NCBI RefSeq assembly: GCF_963677065.1 | Contig: NZ_OY781872.1 | Coordinates: 429,419-493,418 of the forward strand | DNA: 64,000 nt | Reading direction: 5' to 3' | DNA from: an uncultured Methanoregula sp. | GTDB taxonomy: Archaea > Halobacteriota > Methanomicrobia > Methanomicrobiales > Methanospirillaceae | Translations under genes and position numbers: made by a program | The notes under the pieces: model-generated | Seen by the model: only the letters and a program-made list of their open reading frames with translations | Database searches by the model: none | What the model was told of the DNA's origin: nothing | Part shown: piece by piece, positions 6,480 to 43,061 of the stretch | Layout of the letters: each line of letters begins with the position of its first letter | How positions within the stretch are numbered: position 1 is the stretch's first letter

Positions 6480-6548
6480 TATGAATAACCCCTGTATCAT
6501 AAAAGAGGGTCTGGGAATAGATAATATTTTTCAAAAGGAGGCAGAAGT

Positions 6549-8191: not shown

Positions 8192-8199
8192 CTTTTATT

Positions 8200-8217
8200 A
8201 TTTAGGGTACCCTAAAT
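8200..8217. promoter_or_regulatory. Second, perfect 18-bp palindromic operator of feoAB
   Basis: ATTTAGGGTACCCTAAAT reads the same on both strands. It begins right after an AT-rich TATA-like element (TTTTATTA at 8193-8200) and ends ten bases before the feoA start. A bound repressor would cover the TATA box and the likely transcription start, since an archaeal start site about 25 bases downstream of that TATA falls near the feoA ATG. The half-site TTTAGG matches the first palindrome. Repression by a DtxR-family metal sensor is inferred from the motif and the regulated genes. Confidence 0.8.
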
Positions 8218-8226
8218 ATTGAGTGC

Positions 8227-10565: not shown

Positions 10566-10686
10566 CCAAAAAAAACAATATATTGTCAAATAACAGATTA
10601 TACCTAAACATTTCTTGGCAGATGATGAAAGTTACCCCCACTGAATTGATGATGACGCAGGGGTCTGATGCCGCATTCTTATCTCT

Positions 10687-11841: not shown

Positions 11842-11842
11842 C

Positions 11843-12778: not shown

Positions 12779-12817
12779 CACATCCTAATATGTCATCCAT
12801 GCTATAGGATTACTGCT

Positions 12818-13690: not shown

Positions 13691-13732
13691 ATTTATATTG
13701 ATTTATCATGTAAGATTATCTAGGGATTTTCC

Positions 13733-14275: not shown

Positions 14276-14535
14276 TGTCACTCGCCATCGGATGCCGGGC
14301 ACGGCCGGGAAAATCCCGGGACAACAAGACCGGTTCGTGGCGGGTCTTCAAACCTATCTTCGACCATGAGAAGTGCTCGAAGTGCGGGATGTGCAGGACT
14401 CTGTGTCCCGAGGGATGTGTCCACGAGGATGCCGGGGGATTCTTCGACCCCGACTATGCCTACTGCAAGGGCTGCGGGATCTGCGCTGCCGAATGTCCCA
14501 AGGATGCAATCACCATGAAACAGGAGGAGAAGTAG
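14275..14535 (+). CDS. porD: Pyruvate:ferredoxin oxidoreductase, delta (ferredoxin-like) subunit
   Basis: An 86-residue protein carrying two [4Fe-4S] clusters that pass electrons between the TPP centre and ferredoxin. The two cysteine motifs are CSKCGMCRTLCPEGC and CKGCGICAAECP, each followed by the expected Pro. The N-terminal part (GCRARPGKSRDNKTGSWR) is typical of PorD, which has a basic arm before the clusters. The start codon overlaps the porC stop, and the porA ATG follows the porD stop directly, so all subunits are made from one message. Confidence 0.94.
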   Translation: MSLAIGCRARPGKSRDNKTGSWRVFKPIFDHEKCSKCGMCRTLCPEGCVHEDAGGFFDPDYAYCKGCGICAAECPKDAITMKQEEK

Positions 14536-15693: not shown

Positions 15694-15694
15694 A

Positions 15695-16597
15695 ATGGCA
15701 TGCAAAACCTGTGAACTCTTCGATTCCGGCCACCGCGCCTGCGGGGGCTGCGGGGCATCGCTTGCCGCCCGGCTCGTCACCCAGGCTGCAGGATCCGAAT
15801 CGATATTTGTATCGTCGACAGGATGCATGGAAGTCTTCTCCACTCCCTACCCCGAAACCGCGTGGAAAGTGCCGTGGATCCACTCCCTCTTCGAGAACGC
15901 GGCTGCCGTTGCATCGGGTATCGATGCAGCACTCAAGAAACAGGGCAGGAAAGAGAAGATTGTGATCATGGCCGGGGACGGTGCAACGTTCGATATCGGC
16001 ATGATCTCCATCAGCGGTGCCTTCGAACGCGGACATGACTTCACCTACGTCTGTTACGACAACGAAGCGTACATGAACACCGGCATCCAGCGGTCAGGGG
16101 CAACCCCGTACGATGCCAGCACGACAACGAGCCCCGCGGGCTCGCACTCATTCGGGAACAAGCGGCCCAAGAAGGACATGCCGGCGATCCTTGCAGCCCA
16201 TGGAGCCCCGTACGTTGCAACGGCATCCATCGCTTACCCGGCAGACCTGATGCAGAAGATCGAAAAAGCCCTCAACACCAAAGGCCCCTGCTATGTCCAG
16301 GTCCATGCCCCGTGCTGCACCGGCTGGGGATTCGAGGGTGAGCAGACCATTGCAATTGCAAAACTTGCAATCGAGACCGGCCTATGGGTGAATTTCGAGA
16401 TGGTGGACGGCAAGGTCACGAAAGTAAAGAAAGTTGTCCGGAAACCCGTTGAGGAATACCTCAAGACCCAGAAGAGGTTCCGCCACCTCTTCAAGCCCAA
16501 GCGCCAGGATGCCGAGATCGCAGCCATCCAGGCAATCGCGGACAAGAACGCCGAGAAATACGGCATCGACATCAAGCTCCCGCCAAAGAAAGAATAA
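15695..16597 (+). CDS. porB: Pyruvate:ferredoxin oxidoreductase, beta subunit
   Basis: Beta subunit, 300 residues, with the diphosphate-binding TPP motif [13 protein letters not shown] (about residues 90-102, GDG to the Asn equivalent further on in [11 protein letters not shown]). The proximal [4Fe-4S] cysteines are seen in [10 protein letters not shown] at the N-terminus and in the [11 protein letters not shown] region. [12 protein letters not shown] and [14 protein letters not shown] are Por-specific landmarks. It ends the operon; a T-rich run (CCCCCTTTTACTGTTTTTTAC at 16599-16619) just after the stop could end transcription before the tRNA gene. Confidence 0.95.
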
Positions 16598-16704
16598 TTC
16601 CCCCTTTTACTGTTTTTTACAAAGTTCCTCCCTGAACAGACAGGGTACCTGAACACTATACCAACAATGTTAATTAACCAAAAGAACGACATTAGTAGGT
16701 TATC

Positions 16705-28864: not shown

Positions 28865-29509
28865 ATGGTGCACGAATACAACGACCCCGGATGCCGACTC
28901 AGGAGCGTGCTTCACCTCGGGAGTTTTCTCCCGCGATCCGAAGCAAACGGTCCCGGCGTCCGGTCCGTTGTATGGGTGCAGGGATGTCCCCACCGGTGCG
29001 AAGGGTGTTTCAATCCTGAGTTCCAGCACTTTTCTCCTGCCCGCCAGATCAGTACCAGTCATCTTGCACGTACCATCATCACCCAGGCCGGGATCGACGG
29101 GGTCACATTTTCAGGAGGCGAACCGTTTGCCCAGGCACCTGCACTCGCTGAACTAGGTGCCCGGGTCCGGGATGCGGGCATGACCGTTGTCACGTATTCA
29201 GGATATTTGTACGAGCGGCTTGAAGCCGGAACGGCCGCCGGGTGGCAGGAGCTGCTCGCGGTCACGGATCTCCTCATTGCCGGCCCGTACATACCATCAC
29301 TCCGGTGCACCGGTTCCCTGAAAGGATCCGCAAACCAGCAGATCGTCGCGCTCAGTGGAAGGATTGCACTCCCGGAGAACGCCGCAGAAGAAAAAAACCC
29401 GGCCGGGATGGCCGAGTTCACGATCTCTGCCGACGGTGCCATCACAGCAACCGGGTTTCCCGACCCGGAACTCCTGCAGCAGCTGCAGGCGATGTGCAGG
29501 GAGATGTGA
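28865..29509 (+). CDS. NrdG-like radical SAM activating enzyme (first gene of AAA/WD40/Hsp70 operon)
   Basis: A 214-residue radical SAM protein of the 4Fe-4S single-cluster activase group that includes NrdG and PflA. GPGVRSVVWVQGCPHRCEGC ends in the CxxxCxxC motif (Cys41, Cys45, Cys48), and VTFSGGEPF (SGGEP at 85-89) is the usual second motif. It has LLIAGPYIPS, also seen in NrdG. It heads a six-gene operon and is one base from the DUF1257 gene. No anaerobic ribonucleotide reductase is nearby, so the target radical enzyme could be elsewhere, or the protein may act with the operon's own machinery. A TATA-like GGGTAATACTATAGG lies 50-70 bases upstream. Confidence 0.85.
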   Translation: MVHEYNDPGCRLRSVLHLGSFLPRSEANGPGVRSVVWVQGCPHRCEGCFNPEFQHFSPARQISTSHLARTIITQAGIDGVTFSGGEPFAQAPALAELGARVRDAGMTVVTYSGYLYERLEAGTAAGWQELLAVTDLLIAGPYIPSLRCTGSLKGSANQQIVALSGRIALPENAAEEKNPAGMAEFTISADGAITATGFPDPELLQQLQAMCREM

Positions 29510-29510
29510 G

Positions 29511-29909
29511 ATGTCGCACTACAGCCGGGTCAGGACCACATTCCACAACCGCGAGGCGCTCATTGCCTGCCTGGCAGAACTCGGTTACCGGGTTGAGACC
29601 GATACCGTGATCAAGGGGCACCATGGCGAACATCCCGTGGAGATTGCAGCAACCAGGAAGAACGGGTACGGGATCGGGTTTGTCAAAGGCGACAACTCAT
29701 CCTACGATATGGTGGCTGACTGGTGGGGCGTTGCCGGGGCCGACGAACAGAAAGTCTTGCAGGAACTCTCGCAGCAGTCGGAGTCCATCCAGAAAGAGTA
29801 CGCCCGCAGGATGGTGCTCGAACAGACCACACGTGAGGGGTACGAGATTGTGTCGGAGACAACCGAAGCGGACGGCAGTGTACGGATTGTCGTGCGGAGG
29901 TGGGAATAA
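29511..29909 (+). CDS. DUF1257 (Ycf35-like) protein
   Basis: A 132-residue protein matching DUF1257 along its length: MSHYSRVRTTFHNREALIAC, LAELGYRVE, NGYGIGFVKG, DMVADWWGVAG (the strongest family motif), QKEYARRMVLEQTTREGYEI and a final RIVVRRWE. DUF1257 is shared by cyanobacteria, plastids (Ycf35) and scattered bacteria, often next to a Ycf46 AAA ATPase and DUF2997, as here. The role is not known. The stop codon overlaps the start of the AAA gene (TAATG). Confidence 0.88.
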   Translation: MSHYSRVRTTFHNREALIACLAELGYRVETDTVIKGHHGEHPVEIAATRKNGYGIGFVKGDNSSYDMVADWWGVAGADEQKVLQELSQQSESIQKEYARRMVLEQTTREGYEIVSETTEADGSVRIVVRRWE

Positions 29910-31471
29910 TGCAGTATGCAGAGCCGGATTTTGCCCGCCAGCTCAATGTCTCACTCAGAGCCCGGGTCACTTTAATCGTAGTCATGACGCCCGAAGAGGA
30001 GCGCGTGGTCTCCCGAATACGGGAGGTCTGCGAAAGCTGGGATCCCCCCCGGCAGTGCATCACCTGGGACAGCGTGGACGGTTATCAGGTCATCGCCGGC
30101 AATAAAAATTTTCATACCCCTTCGCGCGACCCGCTTCTGGCCCTCGACGAGATTCAGAAAGCAGACGAGAACGCAGTTATCGTTCTCAAGGATTTCCACG
30201 AGTACTGGAGCAATCCCCAGGTGAAGCGCAAGCTCCGCTCGTTCTCCCAGAAATCCAGGTACAACCGCCGCTCCCTCGTGATCGTTACGCCGTCCCGGAA
30301 AATCCCCGACGAGATAAAGGACGAGGCGGTCCTGGTCCATTTCCCGCCACCGTCCCCTGCCGAACTCTCGGCCGACCTCAACCTGCTGCTCGAAACGAGC
30401 GGGATTACCAGTTCACTCTCGAAAGCCGGGCGGGAGAAGATCATCCAGGCCGCGCTCGGGATGACGCTCAACCAGGCCCGGCGCTCGTTCTCGAAAGTGA
30501 TTGTAACCCGGGGAACTATCGGTGACGAGGATATCGACACTATCATCGCTGACAAAAAGGAGATCCTGAGCCAGTCGGATGCCCTTGAATTCTACAGCCT
30601 GACCGAGACGCCCGAGAACGTGGGCGGCCTATCGGCACTCAAGGACTGGCTTCGTCTCCGCGAACGGGCTTTTACCAGTGTTGCGAGGGATTACGGGCTT
30701 CCGGCCCCGAAGGGAATAGCCCTCATCGGCATCCCGGGGACCGGCAAGAGCCTGACTGCGAAGATGGTAGCCGATCTCTGGCACCTCCCGCTCCTCCGGC
30801 TCGACGTGGGAGCACTCTTCGGGAGCCTGGTCGGGGAGTCCGAGGAGCGGACCCGTAGGGCGCTTGGTCTTGCCGAGACAATTGCACCCTGCATTCTCTG
30901 GGTGGATGAGATCGAGAAAGCGTTTGCGTTTGGGAGCGGGGATGCGGGAACAAGCCAGCGGGTCTTTGCCCATCTCCTGACCTGGATGCAGGACAAGACC
31001 TCGCCCTGCTTTGTGGTGGCAACGGCCAACAACATCGCAGCCCTTCCCCCGGAACTCCTGCGCAAAGGGCGCTTTGACGAGATCTTCTTTCTCGACCTCC
31101 CGAGCACGGATGAGCGGCGCGAGATCTTTGCGGTTCACTTAAAGAAACGCAAGTGTATCCCCGCCGATTTCGATCTCGACCTGCTGGCCCGGGAGAGCGA
31201 CGGGTATGTTGGTGCCGAGATCGAGCAGACGATCATCGATGCCATGTACCAGGCGTTTTCCGAGGATATGCGCCGGCTGAACACGGCCGACATCATCACC
31301 TGCATGAAACGGCAGGTGCCGCTCTCGGTCTCCCAGCGCGAGACGGTTGCCGCACTGCGGGCATACCTGGCGGAAGGCCGGGCCGTCTCGGCTTCGAAAG
31401 CGATTCATCGCAGTGCACCGGGATCTCAGGGTTCCATTGCGCTCGAGACCTTCGATATCCCGGTAACGTGA
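29909..31471 (+). CDS. Ycf46-type AAA+ ATPase
   Basis: A 520-residue ATPase of the Ycf46/FtsH-like clade. Residues 1-220 are the Ycf46-type N-terminal domain, itself a degenerate P-loop-like fold ([11 protein letters not shown], then [14 protein letters not shown]). The AAA module has Walker A GIPGTGKS (274-281), pore-loop region [21 protein letters not shown], Walker [12 protein letters not shown] (328-338), sensor ATANN (371-375), and arginine fingers in [10 protein letters not shown]. The second region of homology and lid follow. There is no protease domain or membrane helix, so it is a soluble remodeller. The GTGA overlap with the WD40 gene couples translation. Confidence 0.9.
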
Positions 31472-34272
31472 TCCCTGTGCAGTCCCGCTATGCAGTCCCC
31501 CTCATAGGCCGTTGGCTGCACCGTGCTTATGTAACGAAGATCGCGCAGGGAGCAAACGCCGGAGAGGTTGCAGCAGTCAGGGCACTGGTCCGGATCCTGA
31601 CATCTGATACCGACCCGGTTGCCTGCAGTACAGCCGAGACCGGGCTCCGCTCTCTTTCCGGGCCGGAACAGGTGGACACAGTCTGCCGGGAAACACTCTT
31701 GCACACAACTCCTGCTCTCGCAGCCCTTGTCCGTGACTGCGGGTACTTCCCGTCTGATCCGGCCGACAGGGCGCTCTATTGTTTTTGCACATGGAACCGG
31801 GACACCCGTACCGAGCCGGGTAATGAATGGCCGGTTGATCTCCTTAACCGGGGATATTACCGGGCCGGCACTATCGTCCGGGCTCGGGCCCGGGCTGCTG
31901 CCCGCACGAATCATCTCTGCCCCACCCTTGCCGGGGCACTTATGTATCCGGGTCTTTTGGGACCCGGGGAATGGACATACGAGGAATGGTCAATCATAAT
32001 CGAAGGCCTGTCCGAAAAAAAAGAATGGCCGGAACTCTGGATGCTGGTCACCGCCGCCCCACCCCCGCTTGCCGTGAGTGTCATTGCTGCAATCAGGAAC
32101 GCGGGATGGACCCCTCCCGGTGATGACCGGATGATCTGGGAGGAGATCATAGCAACCCTTCCCGACCGCTGGACCTATCCTGTCCCGGGGGGAGGAGATC
32201 TGCCGGTTATGGAACCGCCACCTGCGCAGATCATTCGGATCGCGTTCTCCCAGGACGGATCGCTCCTCGCAACCATTGGCTGCAACGGGCAGATCCAGAT
32301 CCGGCGAACGGAAACCGGCGGTCTCACCGCAGAGATCGCAGCCGGCTCCGGGCCGGGAGCGCCTCTTCTCCTATCGCGGGACAACCGCTATCTCGTCACC
32401 AGCGGCAGCGGGGGTACCCACCACTGCCACAACCTGCAGGAGCAGACTTTCGCCTGGGTGCAGGAGATCGGAGAGGAGATAACCACCCTCTCACAGTTCC
32501 CGGACAACGGGTTCATTTTTACAGCTGACAACCGGGGGATCCTGAACATCCTTGGTCCTGAGGATGGGAGGATCATCCGTACCCACCGGCTTCACCCGTA
32601 CCCGGTCACCTGCATTGCAGTATCTCGTGACGGGACGACGGCCGCCTGCGGTCATGCCGACGGGACGGTCTCGCTTGTCGGCACCAGGGAGACGGGTGTC
32701 CGTATACTGCCCCCGGCAACAGCGGATCCAGTCCGGTCCGTAACTTTCGGCCCCGACGGGAACCAATGCATTGTCCTCTTCGACCGGGCCCTTCCGGTAC
32801 TCTGGAATGTTGAGACCGGAAGCCGGGCCAGGACATTTAGCGGCCATACAGGCCAGGCAGTATGCAGCACGGTCACCCCAACGGGGGGATGGTTTGCACT
32901 CGGCGGCAATGACCACACCCTCCGGTGCTGGAACTGGCGGGAGGAGCGGCCCGCCGTCACTCTCCCACTCTACAACAGGGGTATAACATGCTGCATTGCA
33001 ACACCGGACGGCGGACACCTGATCGCGGGATTCAGTGACGGGTCAGTCCGCATCTTCCGGATGCCCGGCCTTGCGCTGGTGCGGGAGTACAAAGGGCACG
33101 GGAAGGCGATTGCTGCCTGCGCCGTTTCACCGGACAGCAGATTGTATGCAACCGCTGGATGGGACGGAACCACAAAATTCTGGCGATTCCCAAACGGTGA
33201 GATAGTCCGTACCCAAAATACTCACGCTGGGAGAGTCGTTGTACTTGCCGGGCCGGGCGGGGATTCGCTCATCGCCGCAGTAACACAGGAGGGCATTGCC
33301 CGGATCCATAACGGGAAAGACGGCGGGCTTGTCAGGACAATCGATCTCTATACACCGTCGGTCAGGGCAGCTGCCATGAGCCCCGACGGGATGTACCTGG
33401 CCTCGGCCGGATCTGATGGAAGCCTGAGGATCTGGGATGTCCGGAACGGGAACCTTGTATCAACCGGCAAAAAACTTGCCACATCCCACCGGTGTTGCAC
33501 ATTTCTTACCGGCGGTTCCCTTGTTTTCTGTGGGGGCTGGGACGGGAGGTGCCGGATCTTCAGTGTCCCGGATGGCCGGCTCCTGCAAACGTTCAGCGGA
33601 CACACAAGCGTTGTTACCTGTTGTGCCGCAAGCAGGGACGGATCACTCATCGCCACCGGCAGCAACGATACCACGGTGAGGCTCTGGCACCCGGAAGGGA
33701 TGGCTGCGCGGGCAGTAATCAAGGGTTCCCGCACGGAAGTCGGGGCGGTTGCCATCTCACCCGACGGCCTGCTCCTTGCCGAAGGAGGGGCCGACAAGGT
33801 TATCCGGCTGTACCGGCTTCCTGGCGGGGAACCGGCCGGTGAACTTCCAGGCATTCCGGGGAAGACAACCACACTTTCTTTCGATGAGAGCGGGACCCTC
33901 CTTGCAGCGGGATACGATTCGGGCACCCTTGCCTGGTACGCTGTCCCGGCCCGGGAGCTCATCCGCACAACGTCAGCCCATGCCGGGATGGTGACCGGCA
34001 GTGTCATGCTTCCGGGAAGGGATCTGCTCGTCACCGGCGGGGTGGACGGGACCTGCCGGTTCCACCCGCTCCCGGTTGCCGGTTCGCTGCAGGCCGCTAC
34101 ACCGGCAGATCTGCCGGGCATCCTTGCCGAAGCCAGGGCTGCCACGGGAACACCGGGAGAGATCCAGTGGCAGTTCCTGTACCGCCTCCTGGCCGCACGG
34201 TTCCAGAGCGAGATCGAGATCTCCCCTTCACCCGGGATCATCGGGTGTTATGATATCCAGATCGCGGGGTGA
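31468..34272 (+). CDS. Large WD40 beta-propeller protein with N-terminal helical domain
   Basis: A 934-residue protein. Residues 1 to about 210 are Ala/Leu/Arg-rich and helical, possibly HEAT-like (GEVAAVRALVRILTSDTDP, then ALMYPGLLGPGEWTYEEW). From about 225 to 900 roughly 15 WD40-like repeats can be counted, each with a SPDGxxLAxxGxDGxxRIW-like core (for example MSPDGMYLASAGSDGSLRIW and ASRDGSLIATGSNDTTVRLW); this would make two seven-bladed propellers. The start is GTG overlapping the ATPase stop (GTGA); a further GTG three codons later is possible. It is presumably a scaffold or substrate-recognition platform for the ATPase and the Hsp70-like partner. Confidence 0.85.
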   Translation: MIPVQSRYAVPLIGRWLHRAYVTKIAQGANAGEVAAVRALVRILTSDTDPVACSTAETGLRSLSGPEQVDTVCRETLLHTTPALAALVRDCGYFPSDPADRALYCFCTWNRDTRTEPGNEWPVDLLNRGYYRAGTIVRARARAAARTNHLCPTLAGALMYPGLLGPGEWTYEEWSIIIEGLSEKKEWPELWMLVTAAPPPLAVSVIAAIRNAGWTPPGDDRMIWEEIIATLPDRWTYPVPGGGDLPVMEPPPAQIIRIAFSQDGSLLATIGCNGQIQIRRTETGGLTAEIAAGSGPGAPLLLSRDNRYLVTSGSGGTHHCHNLQEQTFAWVQEIGEEITTLSQFPDNGFIFTADNRGILNILGPEDGRIIRTHRLHPYPVTCIAVSRDGTTAACGHADGTVSLVGTRETGVRILPPATADPVRSVTFGPDGNQCIVLFDRALPVLWNVETGSRARTFSGHTGQAVCSTVTPTGGWFALGGNDHTLRCWNWREERPAVTLPLYNRGITCCIATPDGGHLIAGFSDGSVRIFRMPGLALVREYKGHGKAIAACAVSPDSRLYATAGWDGTTKFWRFPNGEIVRTQNTHAGRVVVLAGPGGDSLIAAVTQEGIARIHNGKDGGLVRTIDLYTPSVRAAAMSPDGMYLASAGSDGSLRIWDVRNGNLVSTGKKLATSHRCCTFLTGGSLVFCGGWDGRCRIFSVPDGRLLQTFSGHTSVVTCCAASRDGSLIATGSNDTTVRLWHPEGMAARAVIKGSRTEVGAVAISPDGLLLAEGGADKVIRLYRLPGGEPAGELPGIPGKTTTLSFDESGTLLAAGYDSGTLAWYAVPARELIRTTSAHAGMVTGSVMLPGRDLLVTGGVDGTCRFHPLPVAGSLQAATPADLPGILAEARAATGTPGEIQWQFLYRLLAARFQSEIEISPSPGIIGCYDIQIAG

Positions 34273-35879
34273 AACAGATGGACCTGGTACCGTCACAGGA
34301 GAAGGTCGTCCGCCTCGGGATCGATTTCGGGGAGAACGTAACCGTAATTGCTGTCCATGATCCGGACCGGATGAGCCCGACGCTGGAGATTCCGGGAATA
34401 TCCCGGGGAATGCCGGGAGTCTGCCCGGAGAGCATGGTGTACGTTATCCCATCGCTGATCCATTATCACGGCGATGGCACGGTGAGCACCGGGTCTGACG
34501 TTGTCCGGGCAGGGCTGGCTGATAACCCCGCAACAGTCAGTGGGATGCGCCGGTATCTTTTCGACGGCAGTCCGGCCCGTATACCATCGGGGGACGGGCG
34601 AACAGTTGCGTGCAGCGATGCGGCAGAGGAGTTCCTCACCGGCATCCTCTCGCGGGCAGTTGCCCTCTTCGGAAGAACGGATCTCATCTTCGCTCTGCCT
34701 GCCGATGCCCCTGCAGAGTATTCCGGCTGGCTGGACCGGATCGGGAGGGCCTCCGGTGCCCGCTCCACGTTGTGGGTGAACGAGTACCTGGCAGCAGCAG
34801 CCGGATACGGGATTTCTCCCCAGGCAGGAGACCCGTTCCTCATCCTCAGGTTCTCGGACACGGTAATCTCTGCAACCGTCGTTATCCCGGAAGAAGCATC
34901 GGCCAATGGAGTACGAACAGCCGCCGAGGCTTCTGCATCCACCGGCACCCGGACGGTCGATGCCTGGATTGCCCGGGACATCCTGGCCCGGTTCCGGCTC
35001 CTGGAGAGCGATCCCCGGGCAGAACGCATCCGCCCAGAGGTCTTCGCGGAAGCACAGAGGGCCAGGGAGATCATCCCCCGCGAGGGTCTGGCAGGAATTG
35101 CGGCCACGGACCCGGTCCAGGCAAAGACATACACTTCCCGCTATGGTGCGGAGGATCTGCTCCGGGTGCTCGAGAAAAACGCGGTTTTCGATACCGTACA
35201 TCAGGTCCTCGACCGGGCCCTCTCAAAATTCTGTGCAGGTGCGGGGGATAAATCCTGTATTGCAGATGTTCTCCTGCTCGGGGAAGGCTGGATCCTGCCA
35301 GGCGTACAGGATTGCATCCGGAAACACCTGCCCGGCACCCGGGTCCACGCAGATTTTCTGAAAGAGGCTGTTGCACGGGGGGCAGCAGGATACCAGGTCC
35401 CAACCATGGTACCGGACCGGATAACCAATTCCTATGCCCTGCGGTACTGGGACCCGAAGGCCCGGGATCACCGGTTCCGTTTCCTTGTCAGCAGCGGGGC
35501 ACGGTTCCCGAGCCAGGGGCAGGCAGCCCGGATCAGCATCAGCGCTGCTTACGACGGCCAGACCCACCTCGGGATCCCGATCTGGGAGATCGCAGGCAGC
35601 CTTGAGAAGGAATGTGGAATCGAGCTGGTTGCAGATGTATCCGGGGGAATGCGGCTCGCCGGGCCTGCAGAGGAGGCCGGTGCAGGAGATGCTGCAGCGG
35701 TACCAGTGAACGAGAAGAATCCAACCCTGCTCGTGGCCGACCCGCCAGCCAAGAAAGGGGAGCCCCGCTTTGAATGTACATTCACGATTGACCGGGAGAA
35801 GAACCTCTGCCTCTCGGCCCGCGATCTCCTGACAGGAGTGCTTGTGAAACTGAATGCACCAATATACCGGATGACATAG
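34269..35879 (+). CDS. Divergent Hsp70/actin-fold ATPase
   Basis: A 536-residue Hsp70-like protein. The phosphate-1 loop is LGIDFGENVTV (16-26). NEYLAAAAGYG (171-181) corresponds to the NEPTAAALAYG block, and VLLLGEGWILPGVQDCI (334-350) to the adenosine motif. The phosphate-2 loop, normally DLGGGTxD, is replaced by ILRFSDTVISAT (192-203), so hydrolysis may be weak. Residues about 385-480 look like a shortened substrate-binding beta domain (RFRFLVSSGARFPS), followed by an acidic/Ala linker and a short end domain. Start GTG overlaps the WD40 stop; an ATG three codons on is an alternative. It is not the housekeeping DnaK, and no GrpE or DnaJ is nearby. Confidence 0.85.
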   Translation: MKQMDLVPSQEKVVRLGIDFGENVTVIAVHDPDRMSPTLEIPGISRGMPGVCPESMVYVIPSLIHYHGDGTVSTGSDVVRAGLADNPATVSGMRRYLFDGSPARIPSGDGRTVACSDAAEEFLTGILSRAVALFGRTDLIFALPADAPAEYSGWLDRIGRASGARSTLWVNEYLAAAAGYGISPQAGDPFLILRFSDTVISATVVIPEEASANGVRTAAEASASTGTRTVDAWIARDILARFRLLESDPRAERIRPEVFAEAQRAREIIPREGLAGIAATDPVQAKTYTSRYGAEDLLRVLEKNAVFDTVHQVLDRALSKFCAGAGDKSCIADVLLLGEGWILPGVQDCIRKHLPGTRVHADFLKEAVARGAAGYQVPTMVPDRITNSYALRYWDPKARDHRFRFLVSSGARFPSQGQAARISISAAYDGQTHLGIPIWEIAGSLEKECGIELVADVSGGMRLAGPAEEAGAGDAAAVPVNEKNPTLLVADPPAKKGEPRFECTFTIDREKNLCLSARDLLTGVLVKLNAPIYRMT

Positions 35880-35896
35880 AAGAAGGAGAGCAGACC

Positions 35897-36115
35897 ATGG
35901 AAATGCAGGAACTGGAAATTACGATTGACAAAGATGGCAGGGTGCAGGTTGCGGTCCGGGGCGTCAAAGGAGAGGGATGCCTGGCGCTCACCAAAGACCT
36001 CGAAAACGCACTCGGTACCGTAGAGGAGCGGAGCCATACAGCAGAATACTACGAACAGCCGGTGGAACAGAACACGTGCCGGGAGACCGGCGCAAGGCGA
36101 TATAAGAATGACTGA
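35897..36115 (+). CDS. DUF2997 protein
   Basis: A 72-residue protein matching DUF2997: ELEITIDKDGRVQVAVRGVK, then GEGCLALTKDLENALGTVEE with the conserved Gly-x-Cys, and a TAEYYEQP motif near the end. The family normally travels with DUF1257 and a Ycf46 ATPase, often with ferredoxins, as here with a radical SAM enzyme. The conserved cysteine could be a metal or sulfur ligand, but the role is unknown. It lies 17 bases after the Hsp70-like gene with GAAGGAG as the ribosome site, and it closes the operon. Confidence 0.85.
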   Translation: MEMQELEITIDKDGRVQVAVRGVKGEGCLALTKDLENALGTVEERSHTAEYYEQPVEQNTCRETGARRYKND

Positions 36116-36143: not shown

Positions 36144-37205
36144 TCAAGCAGATACCGCAGCAGCCGGAACCGGGTACCACACCGGGGTCCTGTTCTTTCC
36201 CGTGACGACAGCAAGAGTTGAACCATCGGATGCAATGGAGATGGTCCCGTCTTTGTCCGTCCGGTAGATTACGGATCCGCTCTCTTCAAGCCGGCGTATT
36301 ACATTCGGGTCGGGATGCGTGGGCCGGGTGCTCATCTCAAGCGATATCACTGTGATTTCCGGATCAATGCGGGACACGAACGGGCCGGTTGTCGATGATG
36401 AAAGGCCGTGATGCCCGGCCTTCAGCACATCTGCCCTGATTGGCAGACCGGCGGAGATCATACCGGCTTCGGCATCTTTCCCGGCATCGCCGGTCAGAAT
36501 GAATGTTGTATTACCGTAGGCAAGCCGCAGTACCAGGGAATTGTCATTGACATCCCCGTACAGATTTTCCGGCGGGTTCAGCACGGTGACATTTATTGCC
36601 GGGTCAAATGCGATGCTGTTCCCTTTCCCGACAACCTGTACCGGAACCTCTTTTTGGGAAAGAGCGGCGTGAAGAGTACGACATTCCGAGGACCCGCAGG
36701 GTACGGCACTTTGAACGAACTGCCTCACGGGAAATGTCTGGATAACCGCGGGCATACCCCCGATATGGTCCCCGTGGGAATGGGTTGCGATAAGGATATC
36801 AATCGATGAGACTCCCAGATTCTGGAGGACCGATAGTACATCGTTCCTGTGATCCGGTTTTCCGGCATCGATGAGCATTGTCCTGCCGGAGGGACTCCTG
36901 ACCAGGATCGCGTCCCCCTGGGCTACATCGATGAACGTGAGGAATAGGCAGGACGAATTTCCCGAACCTGCTGAAAGGAAGCACCCGGTGGCGGATGCCG
37001 CAGGGCCCGGTATCGGCCTGTCTGTCCCGGGTAGCGGAACAACGGTTTGCTGCAGGGAGGAAGAGTTGTCGGGCAGGGATGGGGGGAGAACCGTGCCGGT
37101 ATGGGGCTGGCTACATCCTGAAGTGAGGATGAGAAGAATGCAGATGATCACAATGGCGCAGACCTGTCGATGATAATTGAGCAACCCCAGAAAAATATGC
37201 ACCAT
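36144..37205 (-). CDS. Secreted ComEC/Rec2-type metallo-beta-lactamase lipoprotein
   Basis: A 353-residue exported hydrolase. The signal ends in lipobox LILTSGC, then a Pro/Ser/Thr linker of about 60 residues. The domain opens LFLTFIDVAQGDAILVRSP and has the metal motif THSHGDHIGG, with RADVLKAGHHGL and DKDGTISI near the end, the pattern of the C-terminal hydrolase domain of the DNA-uptake protein ComEC but without its channel. A role in degrading extracellular DNA or another phosphoester at the surface is inferred. The ATG has GAGG five bases upstream. It is convergent with the six-gene operon, with about 28 bases between. Confidence 0.85.
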   Translation of the reverse strand: MVHIFLGLLNYHRQVCAIVIICILLILTSGCSQPHTGTVLPPSLPDNSSSLQQTVVPLPGTDRPIPGPAASATGCFLSAGSGNSSCLFLTFIDVAQGDAILVRSPSGRTMLIDAGKPDHRNDVLSVLQNLGVSSIDILIATHSHGDHIGGMPAVIQTFPVRQFVQSAVPCGSSECRTLHAALSQKEVPVQVVGKGNSIAFDPAINVTVLNPPENLYGDVNDNSLVLRLAYGNTTFILTGDAGKDAEAGMISAGLPIRADVLKAGHHGLSSSTTGPFVSRIDPEITVISLEMSTRPTHPDPNVIRRLEESGSVIYRTDKDGTISIASDGSTLAVVTGKNRTPVWYPVPAAAVSA

Positions 37206-37312: not shown

Positions 37313-38377
37313 TTAGCAGAAGTTCTCGGTTATGTAGATCTTGTCATCGGAAGAGAACGCTACCCCGATCCCTTCCTGGTAATAGGTGTCGGTCAGGATG
37401 TTCTTCCGGTGCCCCTCGCTGTTCATCCAGCCATTGACCACGGTCTGGGCAACCGTTTCCGCAGAATTCCAGTCATAGGCAGTGACCGTCCCGTTCGCAT
37501 CGTTTGCGTTTGTGTAATAGGCACTGTACCGGTTCCCCTGGAAGAGATTCTCGGCAATGCCCATGGTGGTAAAGGACTTGTAGGTCCGGATGCACGGGTA
37601 TCCTGCATCATCGCCCCGGGCCCGGGGATTTTTCCCGTCGGGATTGATGTGGTCGAAGAAGTTCCGTCTCACCATGTCCCAGCTGTGACCCCGGGCAATA
37701 TCGGCAAGGAATGAATCATAGGCAAGCGGCAGGAGCCCGTTCTGCTGCCGCTGGATATTGATGAGATCGTGGATGCGGACTTCGAGGGATGCCGGATCCA
37801 GGTACGGGGCTCCCGGGGTCTGGCTTGTGTACGAGCTCTGCGGGGGCTGAACGGGAATTTTTGTCACGGACATCGTGATCTGGGATGTTGGTAAGGTTAC
37901 CGGATTTTCGGTCGGAACCGTGGTGGCAACAATGGTTGTCCGGACAGGAGCCGGAGTTGTCACAACGGTTGTGAAAACCGTTGCCGGAGGGGATGTTGAG
38001 ATCATTACCTGGGTTACGGGTGCAGTTGTCAGTGTGCCGGCAGTAACCGCTGTGGAGGGGAGGGGCGATGCACCGGTGAGCGGCATTCCTGCCGATGAAT
38101 CCGGACTTATTCCGGAGAGATTACCGGCTGGACCGGAAGACGCAGCCGCCGGGGAGGTCTTAGCCAGGAGAGAAATTGCGGCAAGGCAGACCACTGCGAT
38201 AACAGCGATTACGGCGATCACCAGCAGCCAGCGTGAAACACCGTGCGGGAGTTGGGTGACAGGAGGATGTTCTGCCGGTACCACACCAGGAGGAAACGGT
38301 GCCCCGCAAACACCACAGAATTTCTGATCGGGGGATCGGCGCGGCGATCCGCATTTCCCGCAAAAGCGTTGGGCCAT
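37313..38377 (-). CDS. Zinc-ribbon, membrane-anchored CAP/SCP-domain protein
   Basis: A 354-residue protein with three parts: a cytoplasmic zinc ribbon (CGKCGSPRRSPDQKFCGVCG), one membrane helix (about residues 45-70), and a long Thr/Ser/Pro/Val linker followed by an external CAP domain. CAP marks are GHSWDMVRRNFFDHINPDG, GIAENLF, and GWMNSEGHRKNIL, which carry the His/Glu pairs of the family. Such archaeal and bacterial CAP proteins are of unknown biochemical role. I chose the ATG giving MAQRFCGKCG; a longer frame adds 24 unsupported residues. Confidence 0.85.
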   Translation of the reverse strand: MAQRFCGKCGSPRRSPDQKFCGVCGAPFPPGVVPAEHPPVTQLPHGVSRWLLVIAVIAVIAVVCLAAISLLAKTSPAAASSGPAGNLSGISPDSSAGMPLTGASPLPSTAVTAGTLTTAPVTQVMISTSPPATVFTTVVTTPAPVRTTIVATTVPTENPVTLPTSQITMSVTKIPVQPPQSSYTSQTPGAPYLDPASLEVRIHDLINIQRQQNGLLPLAYDSFLADIARGHSWDMVRRNFFDHINPDGKNPRARGDDAGYPCIRTYKSFTTMGIAENLFQGNRYSAYYTNANDANGTVTAYDWNSAETVAQTVVNGWMNSEGHRKNILTDTYYQEGIGVAFSSDDKIYITENFC

Positions 38378-38449
38378 GATCTCATGAGGTTGGTTATCGC
38401 AAAGAAAAAAAGATAACCGCCAGATCTGCAGACCGGGAGATTGTTCCAA

Positions 38450-41400
38450 TCATGTCCCGGCAGAGCGGCACGCAGCTGCCGGAACAATTATCTCGAACCG
38501 CGCCCCCTTGCCCGGCACCCCCGTTTCGCAGATGGTAATTCCTGTTATTCCGAGGATCTCACGGGAAAGAAATAGGCCAAGGCCGGTATTTTTACCATAC
38601 CCCTGGCAGAAGATCTTCTCCTTCTCATGTTCCGGTATACCTATCCCATTGTCTTCCCAGATAATCGTACAGCGTTCGGGCCCCGTCTGTGAAGACACCC
38701 GGACCCGGGTTGCGTCTTTTCCATGGCGGATCAGGTTATCAAGAAGGTTTGAGAAGACGTTATTGAGAAGGGGATCGGCATACACCTGGATATCCGGAAG
38801 ATCCACTTCAAAGACCAGATCCGGAGGAACCTGCAGCCGGGAGATGATAGCCTGTATATCCTGCCAGATCGGCTCCGTACTCCCGAGATCCTCGTAGATA
38901 CGGGTAAATTCAATGTGCTCGCTGATTGCACCGGTAATGGATTCCAGCCGGGTGATAGAAGCGGCCATGGCCGGATCCGCTGATCTCTCCCGGGCAAGGA
39001 TGAGATGCCCCATGAGAGCGGTGACCTTGTTCCGGAGATCATGGCGGGTGATGCTGGAAAGCAGGCTGAGTTTCCGGTTCGTCTCCCTTAGTGCTTGTTC
39101 TGTTTTGAGCTGGGCCCGCATATCGCGAATCATGGCAAGAACCACCGATTCACCCTCAAGATTGATGAGACTGTTGCTCACTTCCACCGGAATCCTTTGC
39201 TTGTCCTTTGTCAGGAGTTCCGTCCGGAAGAGTGCTGCTCCATAAGAAAAGAGCTGGTCCAGGATTGCCGGAATATGTGCCATATTCTCCGGCCTGTCAA
39301 TATCCGTAATGCTCATAACCAGAAGTTCTTCTCTGGTATATCCCAGCATACTGCAGGTCTTCTCGTTCACTTCCCGGATCCTGCCCGGGCGTTCTTGGCT
39401 GATCTCGTGGATGATGATCGCATCGGAAGCATTCTGCAGGATCTGCCGGTAGCGTTTCTCGCTCTCCCTGAGAGAGGTCTCGTCGGATTTGCGCCGGCTT
39501 ATATCCCGGAACAGAGTCAGGATGGCAGGGTTCTGACGGTAGATCGTGGAGGATGCCATAACTTCGACATCGATACTCGTGCCATCGATGCACCGGAACC
39601 GCTCCTCAATGGCAGGCACGATCGTATCGGCGGAATCGATCATGGTCCGGATCCGTTCCCGGACAACTGCTTCCGATGCCGGGTCCACGCAATCCATAAC
39701 CGGTATTCCCACCAGGCCTCCCGGGCTCTTCGCTTTCATGAGCCGGTTGGCATGGTCGTTGGCATAGACTATGATCCCGCCCTGGTGGATGATCGCGGCG
39801 TCGAACGACCGTTCCAGAAGCCGTCGCATGCGGAGTTCACTCTCCTGAAGAGCTGCTTCGGACCGTTTGCGGTCAGTGATATTGCGGAGAATGACAAGAC
39901 CGGCAGGTTTGCCGCGGAACTGAAGCGGGGAGGCGGAAGACTCAACATCAACGGGCGTCCCGTCCAGTTTCAGGTAAACTGCCTCTTTGAGCCCGACCGG
40001 TTTCATCTCTACATTGACCTGGTTTGCCCTGGTGCGGATCGAATCATGATACTCCGGGTGGACCCGGTCAAAGATCGAAGTGCCGATGATCTGATCTACC
40101 GAAGTTGCTCCCAGCAGCGATGCAAAAGCGTTATTGCAATAAATGAACTTTCGGTCATTCGCGATGTAGATCGCATCCGGCGCACATTCTACCAGGGATT
40201 CGAAATCCTTCTCGTTCTGGAGGAGCGCCTGGTTGGCATGTTCCAGGTCCTCAAGCCGGGCCCGGAGCTCCTGCGACTGGGCGGTGATCCGGACATTGGC
40301 GGCCTGAAGGCCCTCCTCGATCTTCTTGCGCCGGCTGATGTCGCGGTAGATCCCTTCAACCCCTGCGATCTGCCCCCCCGGCCCGCGGTAGTAGTGGCTG
40401 TGAGTCGAGACCCATACCGGGCTCCCGTCTTTTCGCTTCAACTGGACTTCGTAATCCTCGATCACCCCTTTTTCCGACAGGATCCGGAGCAGATCCACCC
40501 GGTTCTCCGGCGTGTAGTAGAATGAGGTTATGGGTTTTCCCAGGACCTCGTCCATGGAATCATAACCAAGCATATTGAGCGAGCTCGGACTCGACAGGAT
40601 AATGTTCCCGTCATGATCGGTCCGGTAGAAGACTTCCTGGATATTCTCGATCACGCTTCGGTACATCGCCTCGCTTGCCGCAAGGGACTCTTCCGCACGC
40701 TTTCGCTCGGTAATGTCCTCGTAGGTGCCAAGTATTCCCGATATCTTCCCGCCGGCATCCCGGAGCGGGATCTTACTTGTACGGAGCCAGATCCGGTTCC
40801 CGTCCGGCGTTGTCTGGGGTTCCTCGTACCCAATCTTCGGGATACCCGAACCGATGACCTTCCGATCATCGGCCCGGTATGCCTCGGCCTGCTCCTTCCA
40901 CCCCGTATCGAAGTCTGTCTTGCCAATCAGATCTGTGGGAGTAGAGACGCCGGCATCCTTCGCGAACGCCTCGTTGCAGCCAAGGTACCGGAGTTCCTTG
41001 TCCTTCCAGAAGACCCGGACCGGGACCGTGTCAAGTACCTGCTGGAGCATCTGCTGGGATTCGTCGGTCCGTTTCTGCAGGTACACCATCTCTTCATACT
41101 GCCCCCGGAGCTCCTCGTCCTGCGCAGTAATCTGTTCGCTAGCCAGGCGCACCTGGTCCTGGTTGGTTCTGAGCTCATCGTACTGCTCCCGCAGTTCCTC
41201 CTCGCTTGCCGTGATCTGCTCGTACGCAGCGTGAAGCTCATCCTCGGCACGTTTGGCTTCGGTTATATCCCGGATCGACTCAATGGCCCCGACAACATTC
41301 CCGTCTTTATTGTAGAGGAGGGAAGCCTTGCAATAGAAGACTTTCGGCTCCCCCCGGATCTGTGCGGCAGAGGTTTCAGCGATCAGGAAATCGCCTTCCT

Positions 41401-42049
41401 TTTTTACGATTGCATAGTTGTTGTTGTGGATCGCTTCCTCGCTCTCGAGAATGAGATCGATGAGGAGGTCGCGCCGGTGGCCATAGAAGGGAAGGGCATA
41501 TTCGTTATTGCCCTTTCCGTTCATTTCGGATGCCGGTACGCCGGTAACCTCCTCGATCGCCCGGTTCCAGGCTATAACGGTTCCCTCGGTATCGATCGCA
41601 AACGTTGCATCGGGCAGAAAGTTGATGATATCAGAGAGGCGCTGTTCCGAATCCCGGAGGGCATTGATCGCCTGCCTCCGTTCCACGGCAATTGAGATCT
41701 TGTGGGCTAGTTCGGCGAACTGCGCCCGGACATCCCCGCCTTTCTGGAGGTAAAAGTCGGCCCCGGAGTTGATGGCTTCGATAACCACTTCCTCCCGGCC
41801 CCGACCGGTGAAGAGGATGAAGGGAAGATTCGGATACCCGGCCCGAATCTCCTTTAAGAAAGCTATCCCATCCATCCCGGGCATCTGGTAATCCGAGAGG
41901 ATCAGGTCGAACTGCTCCCGTGCCACAAGCCCGAGTGCTTCCTTAGCCGAGGGAAGGGTTGTGACAGAAAAAATACCCGACTGCTCGAGGAACAGCTTAC
42001 CCAGCTCAAGAAGGTCGGTTTCGTCATCCACGTAGAGCACGGAGATCAT
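38450..42049 (-). CDS. Multi-PAS hybrid sensor histidine kinase with N-terminal receiver domain
   Basis: A soluble 1199-residue kinase. Receiver domain 1-120: Asp8/Asp9, phosphoacceptor Asp53 in LSDYQMPGMDG, Thr81 and Lys103. Then six PAS/PAC units, each starting with a xSExxYRxxxEN-type helix and ending in DITxRKxxE, with one coiled-coil segment between the first two. The kinase core has the phosphoacceptor His1003 in RHDLRN, an N box NLLDN (about 1101), and ATP lid DNGIGIP (1133-1139) and GKNTGLGL. There is no membrane helix, so signals must be cytoplasmic (ligands or redox). The ATG keeps the receiver start; 76 upstream codons in frame are unlikely. A cognate output may be the separate receiver protein nearby. 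Confidence 0.88.
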   Translation of the reverse strand: MISVLYVDDETDLLELGKLFLEQSGIFSVTTLPSAKEALGLVAREQFDLILSDYQMPGMDGIAFLKEIRAGYPNLPFILFTGRGREEVVIEAINSGADFYLQKGGDVRAQFAELAHKISIAVERRQAINALRDSEQRLSDIINFLPDATFAIDTEGTVIAWNRAIEEVTGVPASEMNGKGNNEYALPFYGHRRDLLIDLILESEEAIHNNNYAIVKKEGDFLIAETSAAQIRGEPKVFYCKASLLYNKDGNVVGAIESIRDITEAKRAEDELHAAYEQITASEEELREQYDELRTNQDQVRLASEQITAQDEELRGQYEEMVYLQKRTDESQQMLQQVLDTVPVRVFWKDKELRYLGCNEAFAKDAGVSTPTDLIGKTDFDTGWKEQAEAYRADDRKVIGSGIPKIGYEEPQTTPDGNRIWLRTSKIPLRDAGGKISGILGTYEDITERKRAEESLAASEAMYRSVIENIQEVFYRTDHDGNIILSSPSSLNMLGYDSMDEVLGKPITSFYYTPENRVDLLRILSEKGVIEDYEVQLKRKDGSPVWVSTHSHYYRGPGGQIAGVEGIYRDISRRKKIEEGLQAANVRITAQSQELRARLEDLEHANQALLQNEKDFESLVECAPDAIYIANDRKFIYCNNAFASLLGATSVDQIIGTSIFDRVHPEYHDSIRTRANQVNVEMKPVGLKEAVYLKLDGTPVDVESSASPLQFRGKPAGLVILRNITDRKRSEAALQESELRMRRLLERSFDAAIIHQGGIIVYANDHANRLMKAKSPGGLVGIPVMDCVDPASEAVVRERIRTMIDSADTIVPAIEERFRCIDGTSIDVEVMASSTIYRQNPAILTLFRDISRRKSDETSLRESEKRYRQILQNASDAIIIHEISQERPGRIREVNEKTCSMLGYTREELLVMSITDIDRPENMAHIPAILDQLFSYGAALFRTELLTKDKQRIPVEVSNSLINLEGESVVLAMIRDMRAQLKTEQALRETNRKLSLLSSITRHDLRNKVTALMGHLILARERSADPAMAASITRLESITGAISEHIEFTRIYEDLGSTEPIWQDIQAIISRLQVPPDLVFEVDLPDIQVYADPLLNNVFSNLLDNLIRHGKDATRVRVSSQTGPERCTIIWEDNGIGIPEHEKEKIFCQGYGKNTGLGLFLSREILGITGITICETGVPGKGARFEIIVPAAACRSAGT

Positions 42050-42221
42050 GACAGGGTATCCGGAATCGGTATGGTGTGTAGTCACTCCCCATCTCGTATA
42101 AATATTTGCCCGATTTCCTTCGGTAAATTGGTAAAAAGAGAGGAGGCCATGAAAATGGATTTCAAGCCAGCGTCGCCGTGAACCTATGCCAGGGAGCCGG
42201 CAGTCTTGCGGTTGCCAGGAA

Positions 42222-43061
42222 CTACCCTGCCAGTTCCCGCACTTTTGCAATATTGCCCCGGTCATCCCGGCGGTCATCCACCGGTGTCTCGCAGATCAGA
42301 GGCAGGGCTGCAAAGACCGGGTTGTGCAGGATATGCCGGAAACCGTCCTCGCCGATGAAACCCAGGCCGATGTGCTCGTGCCGGTCAAGACCGCTGCCCT
42401 TCTCTCCTTTCGTATCATTGAGGTGGATCACCCTGAGGTTCGTGATGCCGATCTGTTCGTCAAACTGACCGAGAGTGTCAGCAATCCCCTCCGGGGTCCT
42501 GAGCTCATAACCGGCGGCGAATGCATGACAGGTGTCGAAGCAGACGCCGATCCGTTTCGTATCTGCCAGGCCGTCGAGAATCCCCCGGATGTGCTCGAAA
42601 CTGCTCCCCACGCTGTTCTTTTCGCCTGCGGTATTCTCAAGGATGAGCATCGTCTGGCTCTCTGATGCAGCAAGAGCGGAATCGATCGCCCGGATCACCC
42701 GCTCTCTCCCGCCGGCCATGCCGTCGCCGAGATGATGACCGAGATGGGTGACAAGATACGGGATGCCAAGCGTGCCGCACCGGTCCAGCTCGGCGGTGAG
42801 TGTTACAACGGACTTTTCGTACACTTCAGCTTTCGGGGAGGCAAGATTCGGCAGGTAGGGCATGTGGTCCACGGGAAGGATGCCGGTGGTTTTGATCTTT
42901 TTCCTGAAAAGTTCCGCAATCTCATCCGGGAGCGGCGGGTAATTCCAGCCCCGGGGATTGCGCGAGAACATCTGGAAGACATCGCAGCCGGCATCTTTTG
43001 CCCGGTCCACGGCGAGATCGAGCGAGCCCGCAATCGAGACATGAACTCCGACTTTCACCAT
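42222..43061 (-). CDS. nfo: Endonuclease IV (AP endonuclease)
   Basis: Repairs abasic sites by 5' incision; a zinc TIM-barrel enzyme of 279 residues, the usual length. Family marks: VGVHVSIAGSL, FQMFSRNPRGW, the metal-binding HLGHHLGDG, ILENTAGEKNSVG, GVCFDTCHAFAAGYE, and VIHLNDTKGEKGSGLDRHEHIG with the trinuclear-zinc His/Asp/Glu. The ATG has AGGA six bases upstream. With ogg it makes a base-excision repair pair in this window. The next gene in the same direction is the PAS kinase, 170 bases on, with no shared transcript evident. Confidence 0.93.
   Translation of the reverse strand: MVKVGVHVSIAGSLDLAVDRAKDAGCDVFQMFSRNPRGWNYPPLPDEIAELFRKKIKTTGILPVDHMPYLPNLASPKAEVYEKSVVTLTAELDRCGTLGIPYLVTHLGHHLGDGMAGGRERVIRAIDSALAASESQTMLILENTAGEKNSVGSSFEHIRGILDGLADTKRIGVCFDTCHAFAAGYELRTPEGIADTLGQFDEQIGITNLRVIHLNDTKGEKGSGLDRHEHIGLGFIGEDGFRHILHNPVFAALPLICETPVDDRRDDRGNIAKVRELAG

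Follow-up and report, generated by a model that had tools for sequence, protein, structure and literature searches.

A conserved six-gene operon of Methanoregula with a p97-like AAA protein and an Hsp70-like protein: probably a cell machine not yet described, with a possible tie to iron-sulfur chemistry

The operon and its place in archaeal genomes

The present analysis deals with six genes within a stretch of 64,000 nucleotides (nt) from an uncultured Methanoregula sp. (contig NZ_OY781872.1, positions 429,419 to 493,418), referred to in the following as the window. The six open reading frames (ORFs) lie at positions 28865-36115 of the window, where an initial annotation of this DNA had placed them, and all of them are encoded on the + strand:

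28865-29509, + strand: NrdG-like radical SAM protein, 214 aa, accessory member (Pfam Fer4_12, 111.8 bits; Radical_SAM, 31.3 bits)
29511-29909, + strand: DUF1257 (Ycf35-type) protein, 132 aa, core member (PF06868, 75.7 bits)
29909-31471, + strand: tandem AAA protein, 520 aa, core member and probable motor (PF00004, 103.2 bits)
31468-34272, + strand: WD40 protein with GTG start, 934 aa, consisting of a HEAT-like N-terminal region, WD40 propeller(s) and a short tail; probable scaffold (PF00400, 212.5 bits)
34269 (GTG) or 34278 (ATG) to 35879, + strand: Hsp70-like protein, apparently lidless, core member (sequence matches to DnaK/Hsc70 in the PDB)
35897-36115, + strand: DUF2997 protein, 72 aa, core member (PF11211, 72.6 bits)

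The ORFs, their common strand and the gene order conserved in relatives all agree with the initial annotation in that this is a real operon. With the GTG start of the Hsp70-like gene, the junctions are, in order, a 1-nt gap, a 1-nt overlap, two 4-nt overlaps and a 17-nt gap, so that four of the five are tight. The ATG start turns the 4-nt overlap between the WD40 and the Hsp70-like gene into a 5-nt gap, and the earlier count of four junctions that overlap or sit within two bases is thus correct only for the GTG start. DUF1257 and DUF2997 each have a single match in the source genome (3.17 Mb). The name 'Ycf46' that had been given to the AAA protein is a label that was assigned by no tool.

Within the window's order, DUF1257 was found in 18 of 150 genomes, all from the window's own family (34 family genomes listed), and a search across 392 genomes of the phylum returned the identical 18. 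When the 17 other DUF1257-bearing family genomes were fetched, 16 matched the window in the order and strand of the six genes, and the remaining locus (L025) is cut by a contig end. A scan of the contigs of GTDB species with a DUF1257 alignment yielded 48 loci, namely 38 archaeal ones, nine from Chloroflexi (Anaerolineae) and one from a 'Deltaproteobacteria' metagenome-assembled genome (MAG). As loci were collected via DUF1257, its presence in them is given by construction, and the 38 archaeal loci partly represent the same genomes as the 17 fetched ones. All six genes occur in the window's order in 32 of these 38, the others (L042, L045, L052, L061, L071 and L074) being cut by contig ends; in L046, L048, L053 and L068 one gene is partial or read in pieces.

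By direct search, a divergent endA gene adjoins the operon in 50 of 55 archaeal loci and trpS lies nearby in 48 of the 55. The endA exceptions comprise three loci without any upstream sequence (L045, L048, L074) and two with >8 kb of it and another neighbour (L022 and L053). This constancy argues for descent at one site with a few moves. Among the archaeal relatives, the AAA protein evolves slowest, with 64-98% identity to the window protein, and the WD40 and Hsp70-like proteins evolve fastest (25-91% and 28-95% identity, respectively). The ratios of non-synonymous to synonymous substitution rates (dN/dS) against L029 and L027, respectively, amount to 0.09 and 0.08 for AAA, 0.13 and 0.19 for DUF1257, 0.25 and 0.27 for the radical SAM gene, 0.50 and 0.33 for WD40 and 0.44 and 0.28 for Hsp70, and to 0.29 for DUF2997 against L029 only; they are hence below 1 for all six genes.

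Related gene sets outside the archaea

In the Chloroflexi loci, these families occur in a different order, namely AAA, (WD40), (GrpE), Hsp70, DUF1257, DUF2997, radical SAM and WD40. In all 11 unsplit Chloroflexota loci (the nine of the scan as well as L099 and L100), Hsp70, DUF2997 and WD40 genes stand beside DUF1257; AAA and radical SAM genes are each found in ten, with the absent ones falling at contig ends. A GrpE gene adjoins Hsp70 in L076-L079 and also in L085, a locus on plasmid pPg_01 of the cyanobacterium Pseudanabaena galeata (122954-141331) that carries GrpE, Hsp70, DUF1257, DUF2997, AAA and WD40 genes, with an AAA_21 ATPase and a 167-aa protein of no named family between DUF1257 and DUF2997. 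Among the four opened of 20 DUF1257 plasmid records, it is the sole locus with this set. Its Hsp70 shares 54% identity over 527 aa with the Chloroflexi Hsp70, the next plasmid DnaKs reaching about 25%.

According to the initial annotation, a common system would be refuted if the WD40 and Hsp70-like genes were mostly found apart from the trio, and in the samples searched the Hsp70-like gene did go together with DUF1257. In 301 Chloroflexota genomes, two separate searches found DUF1257 and the Hsp70 subfamily (E <= 1e-50) in the identical four genomes (G150, G258, G330, G370); in the rows shown, at most four Hsp70 candidates were scored per genome, and candidate-rich genomes may hide another. 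If G150, the centre of the sample, is set aside, three of 300 genomes coincide, with odds of about 2e-7 for independent placements, yet the four genomes are related to each other. G330 has two separate loci, one with DUF1257, AAA and a WD40 gene and the other with Hsp70, DUF2997 and radical SAM.

Of 297 genomes from the phylum to which the 'Deltaproteobacteria' MAG belongs, 29 have DUF1257, with 21 strong (>=80 bits) and eight weak matches, of which 20 strong loci, fetched with wide flanks, and five weak loci from four of the eight weak genomes were analysed. An Hsp70 of this kind lies within the cluster in 17 of the 20 strong loci, and the other three are on contigs of <6 kb. The 21st strong genome (G153, locus L084) offers a 4.3-kb contig with AAA, DUF1257 and DUF2997 only. 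A HEAT-repeat protein takes the place of the WD40 protein in 13 of the 20 strong loci (BLAST groups of eight and five, four members of which were scanned), and the view of WD40 as an obligatory part is not supported. The N-terminal HEAT-like region of the window's WD40 protein is common to the Chloroflexi WD40 partners, and the C-terminal tail recurs in five of those loci.

From the contents of these loci, the core consists of AAA, DUF1257, DUF2997 and the lidless type of Hsp70, a set that is found in Methanoregulaceae, Anaerolineae, the 'Deltaproteobacteria' phylum and on a cyanobacterial plasmid. The radical SAM and HEAT-WD40 genes are frequent across the sets, yet not universal, and represent lineage-specific parts.

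Some further occurrences may be recorded here. In L086, on a plasmid of Treponema succinifaciens (218-16616), DUF1257 lies within a contractile-tail-like cluster (sheath, baseplate J, gp25), a context that is unexpected for the family. In the Prochlorococcus phage P-SSM2 (L098, 147491-148070), overlapping DUF2997 and DUF1257 genes are annotated as hypothetical. Finally, a 465-aa protein recurs in the DUF2997 neighbourhood of L147, L151, L156, L157 and L158, and for the copy in L147 neither Pfam nor NCBIfam gives a match.

Properties of the encoded proteins

The best solved relatives of the AAA profile are p97/Cdc48/VAT (208 bits). In an AlphaFold2 model of the window protein, with a predicted local distance difference test score (pLDDT) of 82.4 and a predicted template modelling score (pTM) of 0.61, residues 6-492 align to D1-D2 of p97 (residues 210-764) with Z 26.0 and a root-mean-square deviation (rmsd) of 8.7 over 462 residues. 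This large value probably reflects domain orientation, since an alignment restricted to the second domain gives 2.5-2.9 A. Motif counts for the AAA, Hsp70-like and radical SAM proteins, as well as the divergence values given below, exclude members with <150 bits for Hsp70, <400 bits for AAA or <75% of the model length, and L160 is outside this set. Walker A, the DE of Walker B and a GRFD arginine finger are present in the second AAA domain of 85 of 85 members, whereas the first domain of the window protein has no P-loop and only one of the 85 members shows a P-loop-like pattern in its first 225 residues. By the model alignment, D1 is matched from residue 6 (of 520) onwards, which leaves no room for an N-terminal adaptor-binding domain of the p97/Cdc48 type. 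The protein is thus modelled as a tandem p97-like AAA protein that combines a P-loop-less first domain with a second one in which the catalytic motifs are intact and that is the probable motor of the set. It resembles the p97/Cdc48/VAT unfoldases in the modelled tandem D1-D2 arrangement but differs from them by the missing N-terminal adaptor domain, the missing first-domain P-loop (in the window) and its dedicated operon.

The Hsp70-like protein of the window has no Pfam match at E <= 0.1, and a phmmer search of the PDB finds DnaK/Hsc70 with a best E of 2.5e-5. Three members from other sets reach 102-133 bits with PF00012. On the model built for this Hsp70-like family, the Chloroflexi and plasmid members score 549-656 bits, L140 472, L160 390 and the other 'Deltaproteobacteria' loci 194-275, compared to 120-132 bits for the two ordinary DnaKs of the source genome, which read 619 and 638 aa. 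HscA models of NCBIfam are top-scoring in four of five Hsp70 members, which would make HscA and not DnaK the closest Hsp70, but by small margins that were not used as evidence. By sequence, the window protein comprises a nucleotide-binding domain (NBD), and with its 533 aa it seems to end with a region resembling the beta part of the Hsp70 substrate-binding domain (SBD-beta) and to be devoid of the C-terminal helical lid, as judged from its sequence.

Its ATP-site motifs read IDFGENVT, LRFSDTVI and LLGEGWILP, where the Chloroflexi member of L076 has VDFGTSNT, FDFGGGTL and MVGGSSQIP. All 11 scored Chloroflexi members, the plasmid member and L140 show canonical motifs for phosphate and adenosine binding. 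The second phosphate motif is intact in 28 of 79 rows (11/11 Chloroflexi, the plasmid, L140 and 15/50 archaeal) and degenerate in 51 (35/50 archaeal, the window included, and 16/17 'Deltaproteobacteria'), the 50 archaeal rows including overlapping genomes. On a quick AAA tree of 54 rows, in which the archaea form one group (support 100), the motif state needs at least three changes; the tree has long branches (L140 and the 'Deltaproteobacteria' set), and three changes alone cannot separate gain from loss. As ordinary Hsp70s carry the motif, loss is the likely direction. Many invariant columns of the archaeal Hsp70 alignment fall into the SBD-beta-like region, and this conservation, together with the loss of the ATP-site motifs, suggests that the window protein is probably a client-binding adaptor without ATPase activity. 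The term 'Hsp70-like ATPase' is hence not supported for the window protein and its close relatives, and the AAA protein would be left as the only clear motor.

The radical SAM protein shows the motifs CX3CX2C, GGEP and NGPG in all 68 aligned members. With 91.9 bits (92.6 bits in the genome scan), the window protein is below the cut-off of 126.1 of the NrdG model TIGR02491 of NCBIfam, and it is the top NrdG match of the source genome. The only family genome above this cut-off (G023) is without DUF1257. NrdD matches occur in 59 of 61 family genomes, whether or not these carry the operon (for example in G017, G109 and G113, which have no DUF1257), and in the source genome they lie at 1754742 and 759008 of the contig, far from the operon at about 458-466 kb. 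Since NrdD is present in genomes without DUF1257, the radical SAM protein cannot be the required NrdD activase of the family. NrdD activation as its main role was rejected on comparison of the 59 of 61 genomes with NrdD to the 18 of 34 listed ones with DUF1257, and the glycyl-radical target proposed in the initial annotation finds no support in these data.

The class III ribonucleotide reductase of the source genome itself looks split. Its 730-aa NrdD (match on contig 1 at 1754742-1756466, - strand) stops short of a glycyl-radical tail. A cysteine cluster and the tail RVTGYL...NAGKQQELKDR, which we take to be of the NrdD type, are instead found in another ORF of 120 aa (match on contig 1 at 759008-759160, + strand), at a distance of about 1 Mb. 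Many family genomes likewise have two separate NrdD matches, covering about positions 1-511 and 503-562 of the model.

For DUF1257, the AlphaFold2 model (pLDDT 83.6) is of a mixed alpha/beta type. No sequence relatives were found in the PDB at E <= 1 and no Foldseek matches at E <= 0.001, and VIA returned tied, unrelated rows (PR10/Bet v 1-like, KA1, adenylate cyclase class IV; Z <=7.7) that are not diagnostic and from which we draw no function. Across 19 DUF2997 sequences, which come from archaea, Chloroflexi, a single Deltaproteobacteria MAG and a single cyanobacterial plasmid, the residues G14, G22, G25, C28, T32, E36 and R45 do not vary, and a profile search found no convincing relative in the PDB (best E 0.49). 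The hairpin of DUF2997 resembles the tail of the radical SAM protein, by eye only.

Downstream of the operon, the opposite strand encodes a ComEC-like protein with an MBL fold immediately next to it (36144-37205, -), a CAP-domain protein with a weak zinc-ribbon match (37313-38449, -) and a sensor kinase of 1275 aa that includes a receiver and several PAS domains (38450-42277, -).

A putative remodelling machine, its rivals and its meaning

From our point of view, the operon probably encodes a real and so far undescribed cell machine, and at a probability of roughly 50% this would be a dedicated protein-remodelling (chaperone) machine that is linked to Fe-S or redox chemistry. In such a machine, a p97-like AAA protein, presumably as a hexamer, would act as the motor and the Hsp70-fold protein would bind the client. 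Where the ATP motifs of the latter are intact, as in Chloroflexi, on the cyanobacterial plasmid and in part of the archaea, it could work as an ATP-driven chaperone, in some cases with its own GrpE, and in the window's genus it would be an ATP-site-dead adaptor. DUF1257 and DUF2997 may serve as small adaptors that couple client, Hsp70 and motor, with HEAT-WD40 or HEAT proteins as the putative scaffold, and Fe-S or redox input might come from the radical SAM protein or, in cyanobacteria, from the ferredoxin Fed7. Oxygen- or iron-sensitive metalloenzymes would be the likely clients. What the data show directly is the linkage of the genes, their co-occurrence in the sample of one phylum, the conserved motifs, the p97-like build of the modelled motor and the lost ATP-site motifs of the Hsp70, whereas the complex, the hexamer, the roles of the DUF proteins and the scaffold and the client are inferred. 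The complete ATP-driven remodelling machine that had been envisaged for this locus thus stands in part: the module is co-inherited and its AAA protein has the motifs of an active motor, but the Hsp70-like protein as an ATPase and WD40 as an obligatory part are not supported.

A possible tie to iron-sulfur proteins comes from cyanobacteria. According to one study, DUF2997, DUF1257 (ycf35) and fed7 share an operon in Synechocystis, the Fe-S protein Fed7 binds the DnaJ-like Sll1384 in two-hybrid assays, DnaJ-Fed fusions exist in photosynthetic eukaryotes and a fed7 mutant is sensitive to iron limitation as well as to oxidative, metal and salt stress (PMC4284462). In that lineage, a protein associated with the two DUFs hence meets the Hsp70 system via a J-protein, whereas the Hsp70 is encoded within the operon here, and the binding of Fed7 to a DnaJ-like protein represents an independent Fe-S/Hsp70 link. 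This cyanobacterial cluster g (DUF2997-ycf35-fed7, with Ycf46 encoded elsewhere) resembles the present operon in combining DUF1257 and DUF2997 with an Fe-S protein; it differs in that this partner is a ferredoxin instead of a radical SAM protein and in that no Hsp70, AAA or WD40 gene is named for it (PMC4284462). In two further reports, the stress operon that includes Ycf46 (slr0374) reacts to a lack of iron and of sulfur and to oxidative stress, with EcaB activity being lower when Ycf46 is lost (PMC7496141), and ycf35 and ycf46 are mostly kept in the plastids of marine red algae and lost in freshwater species (PMC5940233).

Several observations weigh against a common remodelling machine. All five weak 'Deltaproteobacteria' loci consist of AAA, DUF1257 and DUF2997 without Hsp70, and the same Hsp70-free set is found on a Nostoc plasmid and as a second copy in Ornatilinea; a Geminocystis plasmid has a core-type AAA (771 bits) with no Hsp70 within 8 kb, and a cyanophage carries the DUF2997-DUF1257 pair alone. 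Hsp70 is therefore not essential to every DUF1257 set. Radical SAM genes are present in only four of the 20 strong 'Deltaproteobacteria' loci. DUF1257 is rare (4/301 Chloroflexota genomes and 18/392 of the window's phylum), and the AAA family by itself is far wider, with 669 plasmid records. There is also no client that would be common to the lineages, as a gene for aldehyde:ferredoxin oxidoreductase (AOR) occurs in three of the 16 operon-bearing family genomes examined and not in that of the window. Moreover, we know of no physical interaction among these proteins.

The AOR genes lead to a different explanation, namely that the operon encodes a factor for the maturation of a single class of enzymes, the Mo/W-pterin Fe-S enzymes, for example AOR or, in methanogens, formylmethanofuran or formate dehydrogenase. 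An AOR gene is indeed the divergent neighbour of the AAA gene in six of the nine Chloroflexi loci with enough flank (L076, L077, L082, L083, L099, L100), and both L140 and L141 have MoeA as a neighbour, with an additional AOR-like match next to L140. However, no AOR is found beside L079, L080 and L081 or in 13 of the 16 family genomes, L147 adjoins multihaem cytochromes instead, and the methanogen clients are guesses, so that we consider such a factor unlikely. AOR as a general client was rejected for its absence from those 13 genomes and is kept as a lineage-specific rival; complex metalloenzymes represent a theme of the neighbourhoods and no proof of a client. We regard it as very unlikely that the radical SAM protein is a glycyl-radical activase, for NrdD or another glycyl radical enzyme, to which the rest of the operon presents the substrate. 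The NrdG-like motifs, the rank as top NrdG match and the NrdD tail on a separate gene would suit this, but the score below the NrdG cut-off, the one genome above it without DUF1257, the presence of NrdD irrespective of the operon and the scarcity of radical SAM genes in 'Deltaproteobacteria' sets do not.

Similarly improbable as the Mo/W maturation factor is a biological-conflict (immune) system in which AAA and Hsp70 chaperones are joined by a beta-propeller sensor and a radical SAM effector (cf. Kaur et al., 2020). In that work, conflict systems use chaperone ATPases and beta-propellers, with HSP70/GrpE in a subset of those centred on a GTPase, and one subset has a radical SAM effector (PMC7159879); relatives of the trio lie on plasmids near restriction-modification or toxin genes, PADLOC models match the AAA (IetA, 79 bits) and WD40 (HEAT-ARM_XIII, 90 bits) proteins, and WD40 and Hsp70 evolve faster than AAA. 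The likeness is one of theme, as Pfam finds neither a vWA, MoxR or GTPase core nor a toxin or other effector domain in the six proteins, the PADLOC matches fit generic AAA and WD40 domains, the radical SAM protein reaches only 17 bits as pVip, DUF1257 and DUF2997 are single-copy in the genome, and the largely constant archaeal site is unlike a mobile defence island. A loose stress operon, in which generic protein-quality genes are co-regulated by happenstance and share no complex, could account for the differing component sets between phyla and for the Hsp70-free sets. It is rendered rather unlikely by the recurrence of the same four families over archaea, Chloroflexi, the 'Deltaproteobacteria' phylum and a cyanobacterial plasmid, by the matching presence of DUF1257 and Hsp70 in the 301 Chloroflexota genomes and by correlated divergence over 52 loci (AAA-Hsp70, r 0.82; AAA-DUF1257, r 0.88; AAA-DUF2997, r 0.75), although shared ancestry alone gives such values, too.

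We thus favour the remodelling machine, of which no described counterpart with this composition was found in the literature searched, most subscription journals being outside its coverage; this is in line with the initial annotation. Among the papers found to name DUF1257 or DUF2997, no description of a chaperone set was seen. A further known arrangement close to the operon is the Hsp70-ClpB/Hsp104 bichaperone disaggregase, which likewise sets an Hsp70 beside an AAA-type unfoldase; here, the motor is p97-like, the Hsp70 appears lidless from its length and is often without an ATP site, and the set further includes DUF1257, DUF2997 and an Fe-S protein. To our knowledge, no paper joins the cyanobacterial DUF1257/DUF2997-Fed7-DnaJ facts with the Hsp70-containing sets. 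One could speculate, as a long shot, that the operon represents an ancient bichaperone of an undescribed kind that moved between domains of life, and in which a p97-like unfoldase and an Hsp70-fold clamp expose a buried client site for the radical or Fe-S chemistry of the radical SAM protein, that is, an unfolding-coupled cofactor maturation. On several occasions, the Hsp70 would then have given up its role as an ATPase and become a passive adaptor of the AAA motor.

Overall, cyanobacteria retain DUF1257, Ycf46 and DUF2997, and many plastids of red algae retain ycf35 and ycf46, even though we know of no agreed mechanism for DUF1257 (Ycf35), Ycf46 or DUF2997. In anaerobic bacteria and archaea, DUF1257, DUF2997 and a Ycf46-like AAA protein come together with a dedicated Hsp70 and in some sets also with GrpE, which turns this old unknown into a testable chaperone hypothesis. 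The operon further offers an Hsp70 subfamily in which the state of the ATP-site motifs has changed at least three times while the operon was kept. Levilinea, Ornatilinea and Anaerolinea are named strains in which the biochemistry could be approached, and Synechocystis would serve for the plastid-type version.

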